Part shown: positions 3,269 to 12,796 of the stretch, in pieces
Position numbering within the stretch: position 1 is the stretch's first letter
Layout: every line of letters begins with the position of its first letter
Assembly (NCBI GenBank): GCA_029266945.1
Contig: JARIED010000037.1
Coordinates: forward strand, 1-58,481
DNA length: 58,481 nt
Origin: Slackia sp.
GTDB taxonomy: Bacteria > Actinomycetota > Coriobacteriia > Coriobacteriales > Eggerthellaceae
Direction: 5' to 3'
The notes under the pieces: generated by a model
Seen by the model: only the letters and a program-made list of their open reading frames with translations
Told to the model about the DNA's origin: nothing
Databases searched by the model: none
Program-made: the position numbers and the translations under genes

Positions 3269-4296
3269 TGCGGCTCGCTCGTGAAGAATCGGGGCGAAGT
3301 GCCGCATGCGGGCGGCGGGCGGCGGCTTTCGCCATTGCCTGCGTGGCGCTTGCGGCATTGACTGTCGCTGCTTTTTTGAACGGAGCTTCGTCGGTGAGCC
3401 TCGGCGATTTTGCGGCATGGATCGGCGGGGCTGAGGTGAGCGATGCTGCGAAAAGCATTCTGGTAAACGTCAGGCTTCCGCGCGTCCTGGCCGCGCTGCT
3501 TGCGGGCGCGGCCCTTGCGGTTGCGGGAGCCGTCATTCAATCGGTGCTCGACAATCCGCTCGCGAGTCCGAATGTGATCGGCGTCAACTCGGGGGCGGGA
3601 TTGTTCGTGCTCGTTGCCGCGGCGCTGTTCCCCCATGCGCTTTGGGCCGCCCCCTTCGCGGCGTTCGTCGGCGCGCTGACGACGGCGGCCGTCATTTTCG
3701 GCATATCGCTGCATGCGGGCGCGTCGCGTTTGACGGTCGTGCTGTCGGGCATCGCGATCACCACCGTGTTCGGCGCGGGTATGAATACAGTCATGATCGT
3801 GGCGCCCGACGCCTATGTGGGCTCGTCGGTCTTTCTGGCGGGCGGTCTCTCGGGCGTGCTGCTGTCCGACCTTGCATGGCCTGCGGTTCTGATCGCGGCG
3901 GGCCTTGTGACGGCGATGTGCGGGGCGCACCGGCTCAACGTGGTCGCGCTCGGCGACGATATGGCGCATGCGCTCGGATTGAATGTGCGCGCCGTCAGGC
4001 TCGCCATGCTGGCCGTCGCGTCGCTGCTTGCCGGGGCGGCCGTGAGCTTCGCGGGCCTTCTGGGCTTCGTAGGGTTGATCGTTCCGCATATCGTGCGTTT
4101 CGCGGTCGGAAGCGACAACCGCGCGGTGATTCCTCTGTCCGCTGTGGTCGGGGCGGCGTTCGTGGTCGGCTGCGACCTCGTGGCACGTGTCGCGTTCGCG
4201 CCGTACGAGGTGCCTGTTGGCATTCTTATGGCGTTCGTGGGCGGCCCGTTTTTCATCTATCTGATCTTTAGGAACAGGAGGGGAGGCCTTGACTAG
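3268..4296 (+). CDS. FecCD-family ABC transporter permease
   Basis: 342 residues, almost entirely hydrophobic with about nine to ten predicted membrane spans. It carries the FecCD signatures LPRVLAALLAGAALAVAG with IQSVLDNPLASPNVIGVNSGA near the N-terminus, and FVGLIVPHIVRF in the loop that couples to the ATPase. It forms the membrane channel of an iron-siderophore, haem or B12 importer. The ATG at 3268 overlaps the stop of the binding-protein gene, and the ATPase start lies inside the 3' end of this gene, so the three form one transcription and translation unit. Confidence 0.9.
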   Translation: MRLAREESGRSAACGRRAAAFAIACVALAALTVAAFLNGASSVSLGDFAAWIGGAEVSDAAKSILVNVRLPRVLAALLAGAALAVAGAVIQSVLDNPLASPNVIGVNSGAGLFVLVAAALFPHALWAAPFAAFVGALTTAAVIFGISLHAGASRLTVVLSGIAITTVFGAGMNTVMIVAPDAYVGSSVFLAGGLSGVLLSDLAWPAVLIAAGLVTAMCGAHRLNVVALGDDMAHALGLNVRAVRLAMLAVASLLAGAAVSFAGLLGFVGLIVPHIVRFAVGSDNRAVIPLSAVVGAAFVVGCDLVARVAFAPYEVPVGILMAFVGGPFFIYLIFRNRRGGLD

Positions 4297-5927: not shown

Positions 5928-6977
5928 ATGGCAAACGAAGGAAGCTTTGAGGCGAGCCAGAAGCGCAGCGACGAGATCCGCGCCGACCTGACGGCTCATC
6001 CTGAGAAATACACGATGCTGACGGGCGACCGCCCGACGGGCAGGCTGCACCTCGGCCACTACTTCGGCACGCTGAAAGGCCGCGTCGAACTTCAGAACAT
6101 GGGCGCGCGCACCAACGTGCTCATCGCCGACTACCAGGTGATCACCGACCGCGACACCACCGAGCATATCCAGGACAACGTGTACAACATGGTGATGGAT
6201 TATTTGGCGTGCGGCATCGACCCCGAGAAGACGATGATTTACACGCACTCCGCCGTTCCCGCCTGCAACCAGCTCATGCTGCCGTTCTTGAGCCTGGTCA
6301 CCGAAGCGGAGCTGCAGCGCAACCCCACCGTGAAGGCCGAGATGGAGGCGTCGGGCCACGAGCTCACGGGCCTTCTTCTGACCTATCCCGTGCATCAGGC
6401 GTGCGACATCCTGTTCTGCAAGGGCAATGTGGTTCCCGTCGGTCGCGACCAGCTGCCCCATATCGAGCTGACCCGCACGATCGCCCGCCGTTTCAACAAC
6501 CGCTACGGCCAGGTGTTCCCCGAGGTCGACGCGCTTCTGTCCGACACGCCGCTTCTTCCCGGCCTCGACGGCCGCAAGATGAGCAAGTCCTACGGCAACG
6601 CCATCAGCATTTCCATGACCGCGGAAGAAACCGCCAAGCGCATCAAGAAGAGCCAGACCGACTCCGAGCGCATGATTACGTTCGACCCCGAGAACCGTCC
6701 CGGCGTTTCGGGCCTCATCTCCACGGCCGCCATCTGCACCGGCCGCGACGAGGTTGAAATCGCCGAGGAAATCGGCATGGGCGGATCGGGCGCGCTGAAG
6801 AAGTACGTGACCGAGGCGGTCAACGAGTACTTCGCTCCCATTCGCGAGCGCCGCGCCGCCTTCGAGAAAGACCTCGACTACGTCAAGGACGTGCTGCACG
6901 AGGGCAACAAGCGCGCCAACGAAATCGCGAACCAGACGCTTGCCGAGGTGCAGGAAGCCATGGGAATGGTCTACTAG
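5928..6977 (+). CDS. trpS: Tryptophanyl-tRNA synthetase
   Basis: 349 residues, the usual bacterial length. It charges tRNA-Trp. Class I signatures are clear: GDRPTGRLHLGHYFG (HIGH region) and GRKMSKSYGNA (KMSKS). GAAGGAG lies nine bases upstream of the ATG. It is a single-gene unit with its own terminator at 7000-7030. No T-box stem or specifier-like structure was seen in the short upstream region. Confidence 0.97.
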   Translation: MANEGSFEASQKRSDEIRADLTAHPEKYTMLTGDRPTGRLHLGHYFGTLKGRVELQNMGARTNVLIADYQVITDRDTTEHIQDNVYNMVMDYLACGIDPEKTMIYTHSAVPACNQLMLPFLSLVTEAELQRNPTVKAEMEASGHELTGLLLTYPVHQACDILFCKGNVVPVGRDQLPHIELTRTIARRFNNRYGQVFPEVDALLSDTPLLPGLDGRKMSKSYGNAISISMTAEETAKRIKKSQTDSERMITFDPENRPGVSGLISTAAICTGRDEVEIAEEIGMGGSGALKKYVTEAVNEYFAPIRERRAAFEKDLDYVKDVLHEGNKRANEIANQTLAEVQEAMGMVY

Positions 6978-6991
6978 CGCGATTATCTATG

Positions 6992-7029
6992 CGATGCGGA
7001 AAACGCCGTCCGATCCCGGGCGGCGTTTT
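6992..7029 (+). repeat. 38-bp direct repeat, left copy (overlaps trpS terminator)
   Basis: This 38-bp segment recurs at 12204-12241 with 36 of 38 positions identical; the two differences are C/T at 6997 and 7015. It contains the complete trpS terminator hairpin and a few bases 5' of it. No third copy was noticed in the window. The pair brackets exactly the atypical helicase locus. Confidence 0.85.
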
Positions 7030-7196: not shown

Positions 7197-7260
7197 GGGT
7201 CCGACGAGATAGGCGACGGCATGTCCGGTTCGCTTTTGAAATTGCATGGAGGGGGTTGCC

Positions 7261-10041
7261 GTGGCAGTAAACGACGAGGGCAGGTTCAGGCGAGCGCTCG
7301 ACTACTGGAACCAAGTGGAGCTTCTTGGGCGAGAAGTGGCCTTGAACAAATTCAAGTCAGACAGCGGCAAAGACAGGTTTGCGGAAAAGGTCGCTGACGA
7401 TGACTTCGAGCACGGTGAATCCGTTTCCGCTTTGGCCGAAATGTACGTGAAGCAGAACAGGGGAACTTGGACTGGCCGGTCGGACGCGGACGATGACGAC
7501 AAGAGGTCCGTTCCGGGGTGGTATGCGCTTTACTTCGGCGAACTGCCCGTTTCTCTAATCGCCAAACGATTGATTGACGGGTCGTGGGGCGACAATACGG
7601 GCAACCCCGACGGCATTTCGGGCCTCAAGGCCGACGTGTTCCCTCTTTTCGAAATCGTGTGCAGCGGCGGCAAAATCGTGAAAGCGGGCCCGACGTTTTC
7701 AGCATGGCTCTGCGAGAGCTATCTCGATGCGTCATCCAAAGGCGCCCTTTCCACGGATGACTACGAAGCATGCTGTTCGAAGTATTTCGACACCCTGATT
7801 CGAAAGAAAGAGGGGGAACTGAATGTAAAGAAGGCCAAGGATTGGGCCAAAAAGTCGATCAGACAGTTTTTCGGGCGCGACGGCATGGGCGCATGGGAGA
7901 AGGAGGGGTGCTCTTTCGGTCCCGTACGTCTTTTCTTCTGCTCCACCAAGAAAGATGCGGTCGAATGGGGGCCTGCAAAGGACTCTTCCTTCAGGGGAGA
8001 TATCGTATGGGTCAAGAGACATATTGCCGCGGTCGAGCCCCGCATCGCCGGTCGAGAGGAGACGCAATCGTCGCATCATTTCTCGTTCGTGGGTAAATTC
8101 ATGGAACCCTTTAAATCTTTGCGGTCTTCCCTGTCGAGGCGTCCCGCCGAAGAGCAGCACGGAGCGCTCGACTTGGTGCGCCATTACATCGACGCCGGCT
8201 TCATGACCGAGGCCTGCCTCGACGCTCGAACGGATCTTCTCGACCGTTCTTCGGGTGAGGAGGAGCTGCGCGATTTCTATAGCAGGGCTCTTTTCGGCGG
8301 AAGGACTCCTGCGGGCAGATGGCCTTCGCGTTGGGATCTTTCCCTGATGCAACAGGTCGCGGTGAACCTCGTTGCGGGCGAATCGTTCAAGCAGCGCCGC
8401 GAAGGGTCGATAAGAAGCGAGGCCGCCGCTCTCGACGTAGCGGACATATTTTCCGTCAACGGCCCTCCGGGCACGGGTAAAACCATGCTGCTCAAAGACA
8501 TCGTCGCATCGTTCGTCGTCGAACGGGCGTACTGGCTTGCACGATACGACCGCCCGGATGACGCCTTCGAAGCGGAGCTATTCGACGATATCAAGTTTCA
8601 CCGTCTTAAGGACGACAAGATCAACGACTTCGGCATCCTCGTGTGCTCGTCGAATAACTCGGCTGTCGAGAATATCTCGAAAGAGCTGCCGCTTGTCGAC
8701 GGCATGGCAAAGGGCCTGCTCGGTTTCGAGGACGATTCCCCGCACAGGAAGGAGGACTTGAGGAGGGAGCGAGAGGTCGTCGAGGGTTTCGAGTACTTCA
8801 ACGAGGCCGCCCGAATCCAGTTCGGCATCGACGGCGGGTCCGGTCAGGGGGACATGCTTCTGCTCAGCGCGCGCCTGGGCAACTGGGAGAACAAATCGAG
8901 TTTTCTCAATGCCTTGAAGGAGGTCAACGGGACGATACGCGGGTCGGAAACGCGAGCGTTTTCGGAGAAGAGGGACTCCTTCAAAAGAAAATACGAAGAA
9001 GTCTGCGGCCTTTTGAACGAACACGAGCGCAGAGGGGCGGCTGAAAGCAGCGGCGCCGAATCTGCGACGGGACATTGCTGCGTGTCGCGCGATTTCGTCG
9101 ACGACCTTCTTGGGGGCGATTCGGATGCACGACGCCGCGTTCAAATGGAAAACCCTTCTTCCACCTGGGAAATCAACCGCAAGCGAGACGAGCTTTTCCT
9201 CATGGCTCTGGAGTTCATGAGAGAGTTCGTTCTGTCGTCGCAGGCTCTCAAGTCGAACTACCTTCACCTGTATGAGGGCCTTAACGGCGGATGCAGGGGT
9301 AACGATTACCGTGCGAAGGCCTTCAGGGAGCATTTCTGCAGTCTTATGCAGAGCCTTTTTCTTCTGACCCCGGTCGTCTCGTCGACGTTCTCGTCGGTCG
9401 GGCGCCTCTTCGAAGACGTGCGTCCTGAGGGCGACCTCGGCCAGAAGGCGCCGTTCGGCCTGCTCATCGTGGACGAAGCGGGTCAGGCTCCTCCCCATGT
9501 CGCCATCGGTGCGCTTGCCCGATGCAGGAGGGCGATCGTGGTCGGCGATCCGAAACAGGTCGAGCCCGTGGTCGAATCCTATCTCGATGTGCTGCAGAAC
9601 AAATGGTACGGGACGGTAGGCCCGGCGTTCGTGTGCGAGGGCGCTTCCGTGCAGATGTTCGCCGATAGGCAGAATAACTTCGGCAGCAGTCTCGGCGAGG
9701 CCGATGCGGGTTGGTACGGCTGTCCGCTGCTCGTGCATAGACGATGCGTGTCGCCTATGTTCGACATATCGAACATAGGTCTCTTACGGCGGATCGATGG
9801 TCCAGGGAACTCCCGACGAGAAGCTCGTATTGAACGAAAGCGGCGAGATGGTGTGCCGATACGGCCGCCCATCGTCGTGCTGGGTGAATGTGGCCGGCAA
9901 GGAAAAAGGGAAGAAGAACCATTACGTCGAGGAGCAGGGCGAATCGGCGTTCGCTTTGATGAAGGATTCTATTCTGAAATCGAAGGGCGCCCCGAGCCTT
10001 TTCGTCATTTCTCCGTTCAAAACGGTTGCCGACAGCTTTAG
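7261..10041 (+). CDS. N-terminal part of the split SF1 helicase
   Basis: The GTG at 7261 follows GGAGGGGG by five bases and is preferred over ATG 7246, which lies inside that site. The frame gives about 926 residues. Residues 1-400 contain no domain I can name. Walker A GPPGTGKT lies near residue 401 (8461-8484). FGILVCSSNNSAVENISKE follows as motif Ia, then LLLSARLGNWENKSSF. The DExx box LLIVDEAGQAPP is near residue 738, and motif III is IVVGDPKQVEPVV. This is the UPF1/Dna2-like SF1 pattern. The last roughly 87 residues after 9779 are out of frame with the family (GLLRRIDGPGNSRR onward) and are probably not native, so a product from this frame alone would lack helicase motifs IV to VI. Confidence 0.75.
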   Translation: MAVNDEGRFRRALDYWNQVELLGREVALNKFKSDSGKDRFAEKVADDDFEHGESVSALAEMYVKQNRGTWTGRSDADDDDKRSVPGWYALYFGELPVSLIAKRLIDGSWGDNTGNPDGISGLKADVFPLFEIVCSGGKIVKAGPTFSAWLCESYLDASSKGALSTDDYEACCSKYFDTLIRKKEGELNVKKAKDWAKKSIRQFFGRDGMGAWEKEGCSFGPVRLFFCSTKKDAVEWGPAKDSSFRGDIVWVKRHIAAVEPRIAGREETQSSHHFSFVGKFMEPFKSLRSSLSRRPAEEQHGALDLVRHYIDAGFMTEACLDARTDLLDRSSGEEELRDFYSRALFGGRTPAGRWPSRWDLSLMQQVAVNLVAGESFKQRREGSIRSEAAALDVADIFSVNGPPGTGKTMLLKDIVASFVVERAYWLARYDRPDDAFEAELFDDIKFHRLKDDKINDFGILVCSSNNSAVENISKELPLVDGMAKGLLGFEDDSPHRKEDLRREREVVEGFEYFNEAARIQFGIDGGSGQGDMLLLSARLGNWENKSSFLNALKEVNGTIRGSETRAFSEKRDSFKRKYEEVCGLLNEHERRGAAESSGAESATGHCCVSRDFVDDLLGGDSDARRRVQMENPSSTWEINRKRDELFLMALEFMREFVLSSQALKSNYLHLYEGLNGGCRGNDYRAKAFREHFCSLMQSLFLLTPVVSSTFSSVGRLFEDVRPEGDLGQKAPFGLLIVDEAGQAPPHVAIGALARCRRAIVVGDPKQVEPVVESYLDVLQNKWYGTVGPAFVCEGASVQMFADRQNNFGSSLGEADAGWYGCPLLVHRRCVSPMFDISNIGLLRRIDGPGNSRREARIERKRRDGVPIRPPIVVLGECGRQGKREEEPLRRGAGRIGVRFDEGFYSEIEGRPEPFRHFSVQNGCRQL
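9754..9779 (+). repeat. Perfect 11-bp inverted repeat at the frameshift site
   Basis: CCTATGTTCGA (9754-9764), loop CATA, then TCGAACATAGG (9769-9779) form a perfect 11-bp hairpin inside the helicase coding sequence. The final G of the right arm is the base whose removal rejoins the two reading frames. A perfect palindrome at this spot is what a quasipalindrome template-switch mutation leaves behind. Confidence 0.85.
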
Positions 10042-12139
10042 GAAAGATTTGAAGAAGTGGGTTCGCACCGACCCCGTTCTGAGGGATTGGCGCGAGCATT
10101 TGGGCGATAAATTCGAGGAGTACCTGCAAAGCAGCATCGGAACGGTCCATACGTTCCAGGGTAAGGAGGCCGACGAGGTCATTTTCATGTTGGGCTGCGA
10201 TTCGAGGTCGGCCGGCGCAGTGAGGTGGGTCGGACCGAACATCGTCGATGTCTCCGCCAGCCGCGCTAAAAAGCGCTTGTATGCCATCGGAGACATCGAG
10301 GTCTGGAAAATCAATCCCGAGGTCTCCGCCATGAAGGGCGTCATCGATTGCCAGTGGCTCGTCGAGTACGAAAAATTCGAGAAACTCGAGCGCGCGTTCA
10401 AGGAATCTCCTACGGATAAGCTTCGCAAACGCCTCATCGAGGCCCGGGCTCGCGTTATGGCCAGCATTCCGTCGGCATCGTCGCTTCCCATGAAGCGGAT
10501 CGACGCGCGCGGCCGCTTCGGTCTCGACGCTGGGGAAGACGGGCCGTCGGAGGAGTTCGCCGTCGATATGTCGAGTTATCTCGCGAACACTCGGGAAAAG
10601 CTGAACGGCATAGCATTGAGCGCGGACGCGAGCGATGGTTTGTGGGACGAACAGGCCGCGCGCGATCGCTTCCGCTCCATCCCTAAAGACGATTTGGAAA
10701 ATATCTGCTGCCTGGTGAAGCAGGGCTTTCTCATGCGCGGGGTTTACAGCCTGTTCGATATGGGGTCCGGCGACGAGCGAGGGCCTTCGGGCGATATGCC
10801 TATCTGCCTGCTGAGTTTTTGCAAAGCGGCCGAAATCTTGCTGCGCGGAGGGTATTTGGGATTGCTGAAGAAGGCGAATCCCGGATATCGATTCGATAGC
10901 AGGGATAGCAGGAAGGATCTCAAGAGCATGAGGACTTCCGATGCCACCTTGGGCGTGATGGCGCGGGTGGTGAAAGGGAACAGCGTTCTTCTGGGCGAAT
11001 TGACGAAGGCTGAGCGAGACGAGGAATGGTGGAGGAAGTTCGGTAATACGATTCTGAGCGTCTCGACGACTCGCAACAGCGCGTGCCATGGGTCTTCGGA
11101 CAAATTGATCGACGGGTCCTGTTACGACAAAGCGATGAAGGACTTCTTCGATGAAGGCGTCGAAAGAAAGGTCGGTTTGCTGGCGGAGGGCAAGGCCCTG
11201 TCTCTTCTGGAGGCTGCAGTGTCGGATTCTCAGAAGGTCGCTTGTGCTCGGGAGGCGTGGAAAGCGGCTTGCTCGCAGAAGGCCGGTCGAGAAGGCCGCT
11301 CGGAAGAGCCGTCTCACAAGGTCGTCGCGCCTGCAAAGGAGGTCGTCGGCGGGGATGCGAAGACGCGTTCTGCCGCCGAAAAGGCTGATGGAGGCGTAGG
11401 AGGGCGCCCTGCCGTCGAGGCGGTCGGCGGGAATGAAACAAGGTGCCCCGTCGCCGGAAAGGCTGGCGGTGAAGAGGTAAGGCGCTCTGCGACCGACGAG
11501 GTGTGGACTCCGCCCAGGGCGAAGAGGGAAGATACGCTGAGTCTTGGGAAAATTCTAGGGGCGCTGAAAGAAGAAGGGGTCTTCGAAGGCGGTGCGCCCG
11601 CATCGGCCGACGTCAACCTGGAGCTTAATGCGATGGGATACCTTTCCGGCGAGGCCGGAAACTGGACGCCGACTCGAAAGGGATGCGAGGAAATGGGAAT
11701 GGCCGCCGTCGACTACGGCGACAGCTATGGCATCGGCTATCTCGACCCTGAAAGGGCCAAGGCTGTTTTGCGCAGGATGTATGGCGCGGTCGATGCTGCG
11801 TTTGCGGGCGAGTGCGTTTTGATCAGGAAGGGCGACCCTCGTTACGGCCTTGCGAAGTCGATGAAGTCGATCGTCGGAGAATCCCCCGATATCGAAGCGG
11901 CTTTCGAGGGGAAGTTCGGCTGCAGGGCTACGACGCAGAAGATCAACGAAAAGCTTCTGGCTCCGAACGGTTACTTGACCGAAGAAAGGAAGCCTACGAG
12001 AAAAGGGGCCGAGCAGATGAGCATGGTCCTTCGCGAGTTCTCCAAGGGGGACGGCGAGCCGAAGGAATTCGCGGTGTATTACTTGGACGCCGAGAAGGTC
12101 AGGGGCGTATTGCTGGGCCTTATAGCGTCCTATCGATGA
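9797..12139 (+). CDS. C-terminal part of the split helicase: helicase lobe 2, HEPN and wHTH repeats
   Basis: The frame opens at about 9779 and its first ATG is 9797, with no Shine-Dalgarno site, so independent translation is doubtful. The second helicase lobe shows LFVISPFKTVADSFRKDL, GTVHTFQGKEADEVIFMLG (motif V) and VSASRAKKRLYAIGD (motif VI with its Arg finger). A helical domain follows with VSTTRNSACHGSSD at 11060-11100: RNSACH fits the HEPN ribonuclease pattern R-polar-x3-H. A low-complexity linker at about 11240-11510 repeats GG, R and A-rich units. Two related modules end the protein: NLELNAMGYLSG..PTRKGCEEMGM..YLDPERAKAVL, and KINEKLLAPNGYL..PTRKGAEQMSM..YLDAEKVRGVL. They look like winged-helix DNA- or protein-binding repeats. 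Confidence 0.7.
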   Translation: MVQGTPDEKLVLNESGEMVCRYGRPSSCWVNVAGKEKGKKNHYVEEQGESAFALMKDSILKSKGAPSLFVISPFKTVADSFRKDLKKWVRTDPVLRDWREHLGDKFEEYLQSSIGTVHTFQGKEADEVIFMLGCDSRSAGAVRWVGPNIVDVSASRAKKRLYAIGDIEVWKINPEVSAMKGVIDCQWLVEYEKFEKLERAFKESPTDKLRKRLIEARARVMASIPSASSLPMKRIDARGRFGLDAGEDGPSEEFAVDMSSYLANTREKLNGIALSADASDGLWDEQAARDRFRSIPKDDLENICCLVKQGFLMRGVYSLFDMGSGDERGPSGDMPICLLSFCKAAEILLRGGYLGLLKKANPGYRFDSRDSRKDLKSMRTSDATLGVMARVVKGNSVLLGELTKAERDEEWWRKFGNTILSVSTTRNSACHGSSDKLIDGSCYDKAMKDFFDEGVERKVGLLAEGKALSLLEAAVSDSQKVACAREAWKAACSQKAGREGRSEEPSHKVVAPAKEVVGGDAKTRSAAEKADGGVGGRPAVEAVGGNETRCPVAGKAGGEEVRRSATDEVWTPPRAKREDTLSLGKILGALKEEGVFEGGAPASADVNLELNAMGYLSGEAGNWTPTRKGCEEMGMAAVDYGDSYGIGYLDPERAKAVLRRMYGAVDAAFAGECVLIRKGDPRYGLAKSMKSIVGESPDIEAAFEGKFGCRATTQKINEKLLAPNGYLTEERKPTRKGAEQMSMVLREFSKGDGEPKEFAVYYLDAEKVRGVLLGLIASYR
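11230..11520 (+). repeat. Degenerate coding repeats in the linker of the helicase-HEPN protein
   Basis: The encoded segment repeats units such as EVVGGDAKTRSAAEKA, EAVGGNETRCPVAGKA and GGEEVRRSATDEV, a loose 'VGG-x-R-x-A-x-KA' pattern of about 15-16 residues. It separates the HEPN domain from the two C-terminal modules and is probably a flexible tether. Such repeats can vary in number between strains. Confidence 0.5.
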
Positions 12140-12203: not shown

Positions 12204-12241
12204 CGATGTGGAAAACGCCGTCCGATTCCGGGCGGCGTTTT
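12204..12241 (+). repeat. 38-bp direct repeat, right copy
   Basis: This is a near-identical copy (36/38) of 6992-7029, 64 bases after the helicase stop codon. The hairpin is intact but the T run is shortened to TTTT then CC, so as a terminator it should be weaker than the trpS copy. The region 12140-12203 between the gene and this repeat holds nothing else I can recognise. Confidence 0.85.
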
Positions 12242-12373: not shown

Positions 12374-12796
12374 ATGAAGAAATATATGAATTGCGCGATC
12401 GTCTATGCCGTGCTGGCGCTTGCCGGCGGCGTGTTCTTCCGCGAGTTCACCAAGCTCAACGGCTTCGACGGCACCACGGCCCTCGGCGTCATCCATCCGC
12501 ACTACATGATCCTCGGCGTGCTGTTCTTCCTGGCGTTGACGATATTCACCCGCGTGTTCGGCGGCGAGAAGAAGGGCCTGAACAAGGTCCTCATCGGCTA
12601 TCAGGTCGGCCTGAATGCCGCCGTCGTCATGATGCTCGTGCGCGGCGTGTTCGAGGTTCTCGGAACGGCCCTGCCTTCCGGCGCCGACGCCGCTATCTCC
12701 GGCATCGCGGGTCTGAGCCACATCGTGCTCGGCGTGTGTTTGGTGTGGACGCTCGTCATTCTGAAGAAGTCCGTCGCCGCCGCCGACCAGGCGTAG
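12374..12796 (+). CDS. DUF2871 family membrane protein
   Basis: 140 residues and about four predicted membrane spans. The start MKKYMNCAIVYAVLALAGGV followed by FFREFTKLNGFDG and a His-containing helix HPHYMILGVLFFLAL is characteristic of DUF2871, small membrane proteins of unknown function. Conserved polar and His residues within the membrane suggest ligand or metal binding, but that is speculation. The start follows GAAGGGGG. It is monocistronic, between its own promoter and a strong bidirectional hairpin. Confidence 0.8.
   Translation: MKKYMNCAIVYAVLALAGGVFFREFTKLNGFDGTTALGVIHPHYMILGVLFFLALTIFTRVFGGEKKGLNKVLIGYQVGLNAAVVMMLVRGVFEVLGTALPSGADAAISGIAGLSHIVLGVCLVWTLVILKKSVAAADQA

Follow-up and report, generated by a model that had tools for sequence, protein, structure and literature searches.

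The arrangement in which a helicase acts as the sensor and a nuclease as the effector is already known from defence systems. In Hachiman, the nuclease is controlled by a helicase sensor (PMC12278908), in CoCoNuT the partners of a UPF1-like helicase are HEPN effectors (PMC11090510), and a PLD-like domain is listed for both Mokosh I and Mokosh II (PMC10952713). HEPN fusions to SF-I helicases were reported, with a predicted role in defence, by Anantharaman et al. in 2013 (PMC3710099). The gene analyzed here joins a UPF1-like SF1 helicase to a HEPN-like domain, and known defence systems include both kinds of component. For this reason, and because fusions of HEPN with SF-I helicases have been noted since 2013, we regard its family as a variant of the known plan. 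In the literature searched, no description of a stand-alone MkoC-like helicase with a HEPN domain of its own was found.

Mokosh type II is similar in having a single large UPF1-like SF1 helicase, and its MkoC protein is the best PADLOC match of the present family (E 1e-36 to 1e-66); however, the PLD-like domain of Mokosh, a C-terminal PLD nuclease, was not found here and a HEPN-like domain stands in its place. CoCoNuT types II and III-A (helicase CnuH, effector CnuE) share the UPF1-like helicase, the long insertion after Walker A and a coupled HEPN effector with RxxxxH, but the HEPN domain is carried by a separate wHTH protein, whereas here helicase and HEPN form one chain. In addition, the CoCoNuT operon includes McrB and McrC homologues, whereas the neighbours in our window are trpS and a DUF2871-like gene, and partners do not recur. 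The fusion reported in 2013 also joins HEPN to an SF-I helicase, but the example given is giant and also bears Vsr nuclease, transglutaminase-like and wHTH domains; neither Vsr nor transglutaminase was seen here. HEPN-MNT toxins and Csm6 share the R-x4-H motif with our C-terminal domain and probably also its fold, but the MNT or CARF partner is absent, and control, if any, would be exerted by the fused helicase.

The window, which is the whole stretch of 58,481 nucleotides analyzed (Slackia sp., contig JARIED010000037.1), carries the gene as two overlapping open reading frames:

7246..10041, plus strand: ORF1 (931 aa), helicase N-terminal region and RecA1 with a long insertion; after about 9780 its frame differs from that of the remainder
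8461..8484, plus strand: motif I (Walker A), GPPGTGKT
9469..9486, plus strand: motif II, VDEAGQ
9544..9558, plus strand: motif III, GDPKQ
9775..9785, plus strand: frame-change site, directly after MFDISN; unbroken in most relatives
9797..12139, plus strand: ORF2 (780 aa), RecA2, HEPN-like domain, linker and tandem C-terminal modules
10139..10168, plus strand: motif V, GTVHTFQGKE
10250..10270, plus strand: motif VI, VSASRAK

SF1 motifs I, Ia, II, III, IV, V and VI are present in order, with motifs I to III in ORF1 (GPPGTGKT, SSNN, VDEAGQ and GDPKQ) and motifs IV to VI in ORF2 (ISPF, GTVHTFQGKE and VSASRAK); the set is spread over two frames in the window and is whole in the relatives. Pfam domains are divided in the same manner, AAA_11 being found in ORF1 (E 1.6e-15) and AAA_12 in ORF2 (E 1.3e-6). 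The G+C content by codon position switches frame between approximately 9680 and 9800, and most relatives cross the break site in one frame. These observations indicate that 7246-12139 holds a single gene for a UPF1-like SF1 helicase, which one frame break at about 9775-9785 divides into two ORFs. Programmed frameshifting was considered and rejected, because no stop codon lies near the frame change, no known shift signal was seen, and most relatives need no shift. As assembled, the window copy is unable to yield the fused protein and, if the assembly is right, it is broken; intact copies of the fused gene are present in relatives.

The RecA2 part matched UPF1 and SEN1 by sequence profile and UPF1, SETX and IGHMBP2 by fold, and helicases dominated the Foldseek matches of the whole-ORF2 model. 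Between Walker A and motif II, where CoCoNuT helicases have a coiled-coil insertion, the window has 336 residues and several relatives have about 560. Among the PADLOC profiles, MkoC (Mokosh type II) was the best for ORF1 (E 1.5e-36) and matched the relatives at E 1e-56 to 1e-66, and model positions beyond 972 of 1136 were never matched. No PLD family was found in Pfam scans of the ORFs and relatives. A preliminary description, made from the letters alone, had proposed a single protein after frame repair, carrying a UPF1/Dna2-like SF1 helicase, and both points are borne out by the motif set, complete across the two ORFs, by the profile and fold matches, and by the relatives, which are mostly single-frame at this site.

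The remainder of ORF2 contains the following features:

10541..11176, plus strand: HEPN-like helical domain, supported by a 33-row alignment, AlphaFold and structural matches
11072..11089, plus strand: RNSACH (R-N-x3-H), ORF2 residues 426-431, at the C-terminal end of a long helix
11303..11608, plus strand: low-complexity linker, predicted disordered (pLDDT 26-46)
11540..11770, plus strand: C-terminal module 1, related to module 2
11858..12112, plus strand: C-terminal module 2, related to module 1

The signature of the HEPN superfamily is R-x4-6-H with a polar residue behind the R. R426, N427 and H431 are invariant in all 33 aligned relatives, as are further residues of the domain (D, C, E, G and W), and R-N-x3-H, mostly in the form RNxCCH, occurs in every relative with a whole domain. 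Because R and H remain invariant while the mean column identity of the alignment is 35%, a catalytic role is argued for these two residues. The domain alone was modelled by AlphaFold as helical (pLDDT 79, pTM 0.75), with helix 161-183 carrying R178 and H183 at its end. In the VIA comparison, the top seven rows were all HEPN proteins, at Z of 5.2-6.8, which is weak for helical folds and below the safe level; these are the HEPN-MNT toxin chains 7ae9, 7ae6, 7ae8 and 8xeh, YutE (1ylm), which we take to be a HEPN (DUF86) protein, and two Csm6 chains, and AbiF appeared at rank 12. The earlier recognition of RNSACH as a HEPN motif accordingly holds in full-length relatives, in which R, N and H do not vary; the structural comparison that it called for agreed in the helical model and in the identity of the best matches, and fell short in the modest Z values and in Foldseek, which returned no significant match.

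For the region beyond the HEPN-like domain, the same description had named a repetitive linker and two related winged-helix-like modules. The linker was confirmed and the two modules are related to each other (local score of 83 versus a best of 48 among 500 shuffles), but the AlphaFold model is too poor there (pLDDT of about 30-66) to confirm a winged-helix nature. In L026, a helicase-only protein from another family of the order, residues 1091-1201 are weakly like module 1 (2 of 500 shuffles scored as well). By eye, further members of the helicase family (L084, L089, L102, L154 and L082, and also L053, L059 and L078) terminate in topoisomerase-like zinc ribbons or bear zinc-ribbon-like ends behind HEPN. 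The C-terminus of this helicase family appears to be a site of module swapping.

The gene lies in an insert whose borders are as follows:

5928..6977, plus strand: trpS, left flank, 77-100% identical in 10 of the 11 other congeneric genomes
7000..7029, no strand assigned: left terminator-like hairpin, bordering the insert
12212..12241, no strand assigned: right terminator-like hairpin, bordering the insert
12374..12796, plus strand: gene of a membrane protein that we take to be DUF2871-like, right flank, 173-213 bp from trpS in four congeners

In the congeners G007, G001, G003 and G006, trpS and the DUF2871-like gene are adjacent, 173-213 bp apart, and this empty site is opened to about 5.4 kb in the window, where the helicase-HEPN gene is the sole cargo of a 5.2-kb insert. 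The 30-nt hairpin (up to 3 mismatches) has two copies in the whole 1.52-Mb genome, both at the edges of the insert, with an expected number of 0 in the window, and the close relative G007 has a single hairpin where the window carries two. The insert is lower in G+C content (58% vs 64%) and in GC3 (71% vs 87% in trpS), and the helicase-HEPN gene was absent from all 11 congeners searched. It is a horizontally transferred accessory gene of patchy distribution. The genome of the window has a diverged second DUF2871-like gene with 35% identity (locus L147, G000:C2:40622-41008).

Single-sequence ORF1 scans of genome contigs and viral contigs gave zero matches, and the relatives were obtained with a four-row alignment as query, which found 410 in 84,980 species genomes; 80 of them were retrieved. 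They are rare and stand-alone, and occur across Bacillota classes and into Eggerthellaceae, the family of the window's host, to which Rubneribacter (G296, L067) and Gordonibacter (G305, L063) also belong. Approximately half have the extra domain and are mostly 1400-1540 aa long, and the others stop soon past motif VI or end differently. Of 396 Coriobacteriia genomes, 4 carry the HEPN domain, always in the frame of the fused helicase gene; of 397 genomes from the Schaedlerella family, 6 do, with a weak match in one case. Protein identities of 63% between Neobacillus and Schaedlerella and 77% between Desulfocucumis and Lacrimispora indicate transfer between classes.

MkoC-like helicases that have no HEPN and end soon past motif VI were also seen in L152 (CP024517.1, 2666-6007) and L153 (3062-6418), located in the transfer region of Klebsiella IncFIB/MOBH conjugative plasmids, where traG and a gene for a lytic transglycosylase flank them; of 582 plasmid records with a match, 506 are from Klebsiella. 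In the phage collection, helicase relatives occur in three records, L155 (4001-6502, Klebsiella phage Kp4866-6), H22 and H23.

On the helicase-core tree, the HEPN label requires 11 changes, at least eight of which are forced by well-supported branches, and a single origin of the HEPN fusion was rejected on this basis, although part of the 11 changes is attributed to broken copies. L070 is 81% identical to L037 yet has lost the HEPN end (position 4232), and stops, frame breaks and deletions of independent origin affect this end, or the sequence ahead of it, in L032 (5733-6173), L064 (8485-8772) and L072 (6573-7865). From these cases HEPN is the part that decays, and its repeated breakage and loss fits a costly effector. 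In many close relatives the helicase lacks HEPN and no HEPN gene lies within 6 kb, and the helicase may therefore have a function of its own. A separate downstream HEPN gene beside HEPN-less helicases was likewise rejected, none being found within 6 kb, and the matches at L032 and L064 belong to fused genes that are broken.

Enrichment near known defence genes, which the preliminary description had named as a check of its immune interpretation, was not observed. When the six nearest genes of 22 relatives were compared with controls, PADLOC matches were similarly few in 129 neighbour genes and 129 control genes, a rough comparison in which gene calling followed a simple longest-ORF rule and the controls came from Coriobacteriia whereas the relatives are mostly Bacillota. 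Inspection by eye found the flanks to be mostly housekeeping, and, common genes aside, no partner family recurs beside the relatives. Also by eye, an AbiH-like protein lies near L081 (12849-14105) and a pair of DUF262-like proteins near L031 (3140-6226). Since the neighbours show no defence enrichment, we infer the immune role rather than read it from the gene context.

Taken together, we consider, with a probability of roughly 0.6, that the window holds a broken copy of a single-gene accessory system that combines a helicase sensor with a HEPN effector and is directed against phages in its intact members. The fit to defence comes from MkoC as the nearest known helicase profile, from the stand-alone accessory nature of the gene, from the empty site and from the transfer across classes. 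By analogy with Hachiman and CoCoNuT, the helicase would be both sensor and motor, loading on nucleic acid that is foreign or aberrant (RNA of a phage, or single-stranded DNA); its ATP-driven movement would release or pair the HEPN domains, and the R...H pair would then cut RNA, as expected of HEPN RNases, which are metal-independent and have a dimeric site, and in this way the infected cell would be stopped. RNA cleavage, its trigger, dimerisation of HEPN and the anti-phage role are, in our judgement, most likely of this kind.

This reading presupposes that the domain is HEPN, and the alternative is an unrelated helical C-terminal domain in which RNxCCH arose by chance and is perhaps structural. 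Apart from the weak VIA Z values, Foldseek with the HEPN model gave nothing significant (best HEPN match at E 2.3), and a Pfam HEPN match below E 0.001 was obtained in one of 33 members (HEPN_RiboL-PSP, E 3.2e-5). With hhalign, the domain aligned at the motif with nine RiboL-PSP HEPN members at a level below significance, and a PDB sequence search with the HEPN profile gave zero matches. However, the motif arginines are placed alike in the aligned range, R178 of the model being 26 residues from its end and R102 of the HEPN toxin 28, R, N and H are invariant, and the top seven VIA rows are HEPN proteins throughout. The assignment, which is based on the agreement of matched family, motif position and invariance and not on single Z values, is very probably correct, and a chance resemblance is improbable. 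As for the frame break, it may be an error of sequencing or assembly in a gene that is intact in the organism, which would be compatible with the defence explanation. It is a single break in a draft genome of 39 contigs, and both ORFs, 2.3 kb each, are open elsewhere; on the other hand, there is no long homopolymer at the site and breaks occur also in L032, L064 and L072, so that an error is a serious possibility that we nevertheless lean against.

The function could also be other than defence. An accessory helicase for RNA surveillance or repair, with a HEPN-like domain for binding or trimming the cell's RNA during stress or RNA decay, would agree with the UPF1-like fold, with the housekeeping-like neighbours lacking defence enrichment, and with the retention of the helicase without HEPN in many lineages. 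Against this, the distribution is very patchy, with movement from class to class and single-gene insertion at sites that are empty in congeners, and among known helicase models the nearest is that of a defence protein; we consider such a role unlikely. Still less probable is a self-contained toxin or selfish addiction module with HEPN as the toxin restrained by the helicase part. Its best fold matches are indeed HEPN toxins, and the HEPN end often decays while the helicase part stays open, but a recurring partner gene is absent nearby, and classical post-segregational killing is impossible when toxin and restraint are in one chain.

Extending the preferred reading of a helicase sensor with a HEPN effector to the whole family is more tentative, at slightly less than even odds in our estimation. 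The relatives may constitute a distinct and so far undescribed defence family of one protein, in which a Mokosh-like helicase bears a HEPN RNase of its own, and which lies outside defence islands, spreads among Bacillota classes and Eggerthellaceae, and has repeatedly lost the effector end while keeping the helicase, with C-terminal modules (HEPN, PLD, zinc ribbon, wHTH-like) swapped on one sensor chassis. If this is true, sensing and killing would be combined in one chain of about 1500 residues, in a defence candidate of the kind that defence-island association misses. The family would then provide, as a natural series, one helicase in forms that bear the effector and forms that lack it, and a simple case for studying how an RNase is switched on by a UPF1-like helicase, which Mokosh and CoCoNuT leave open.
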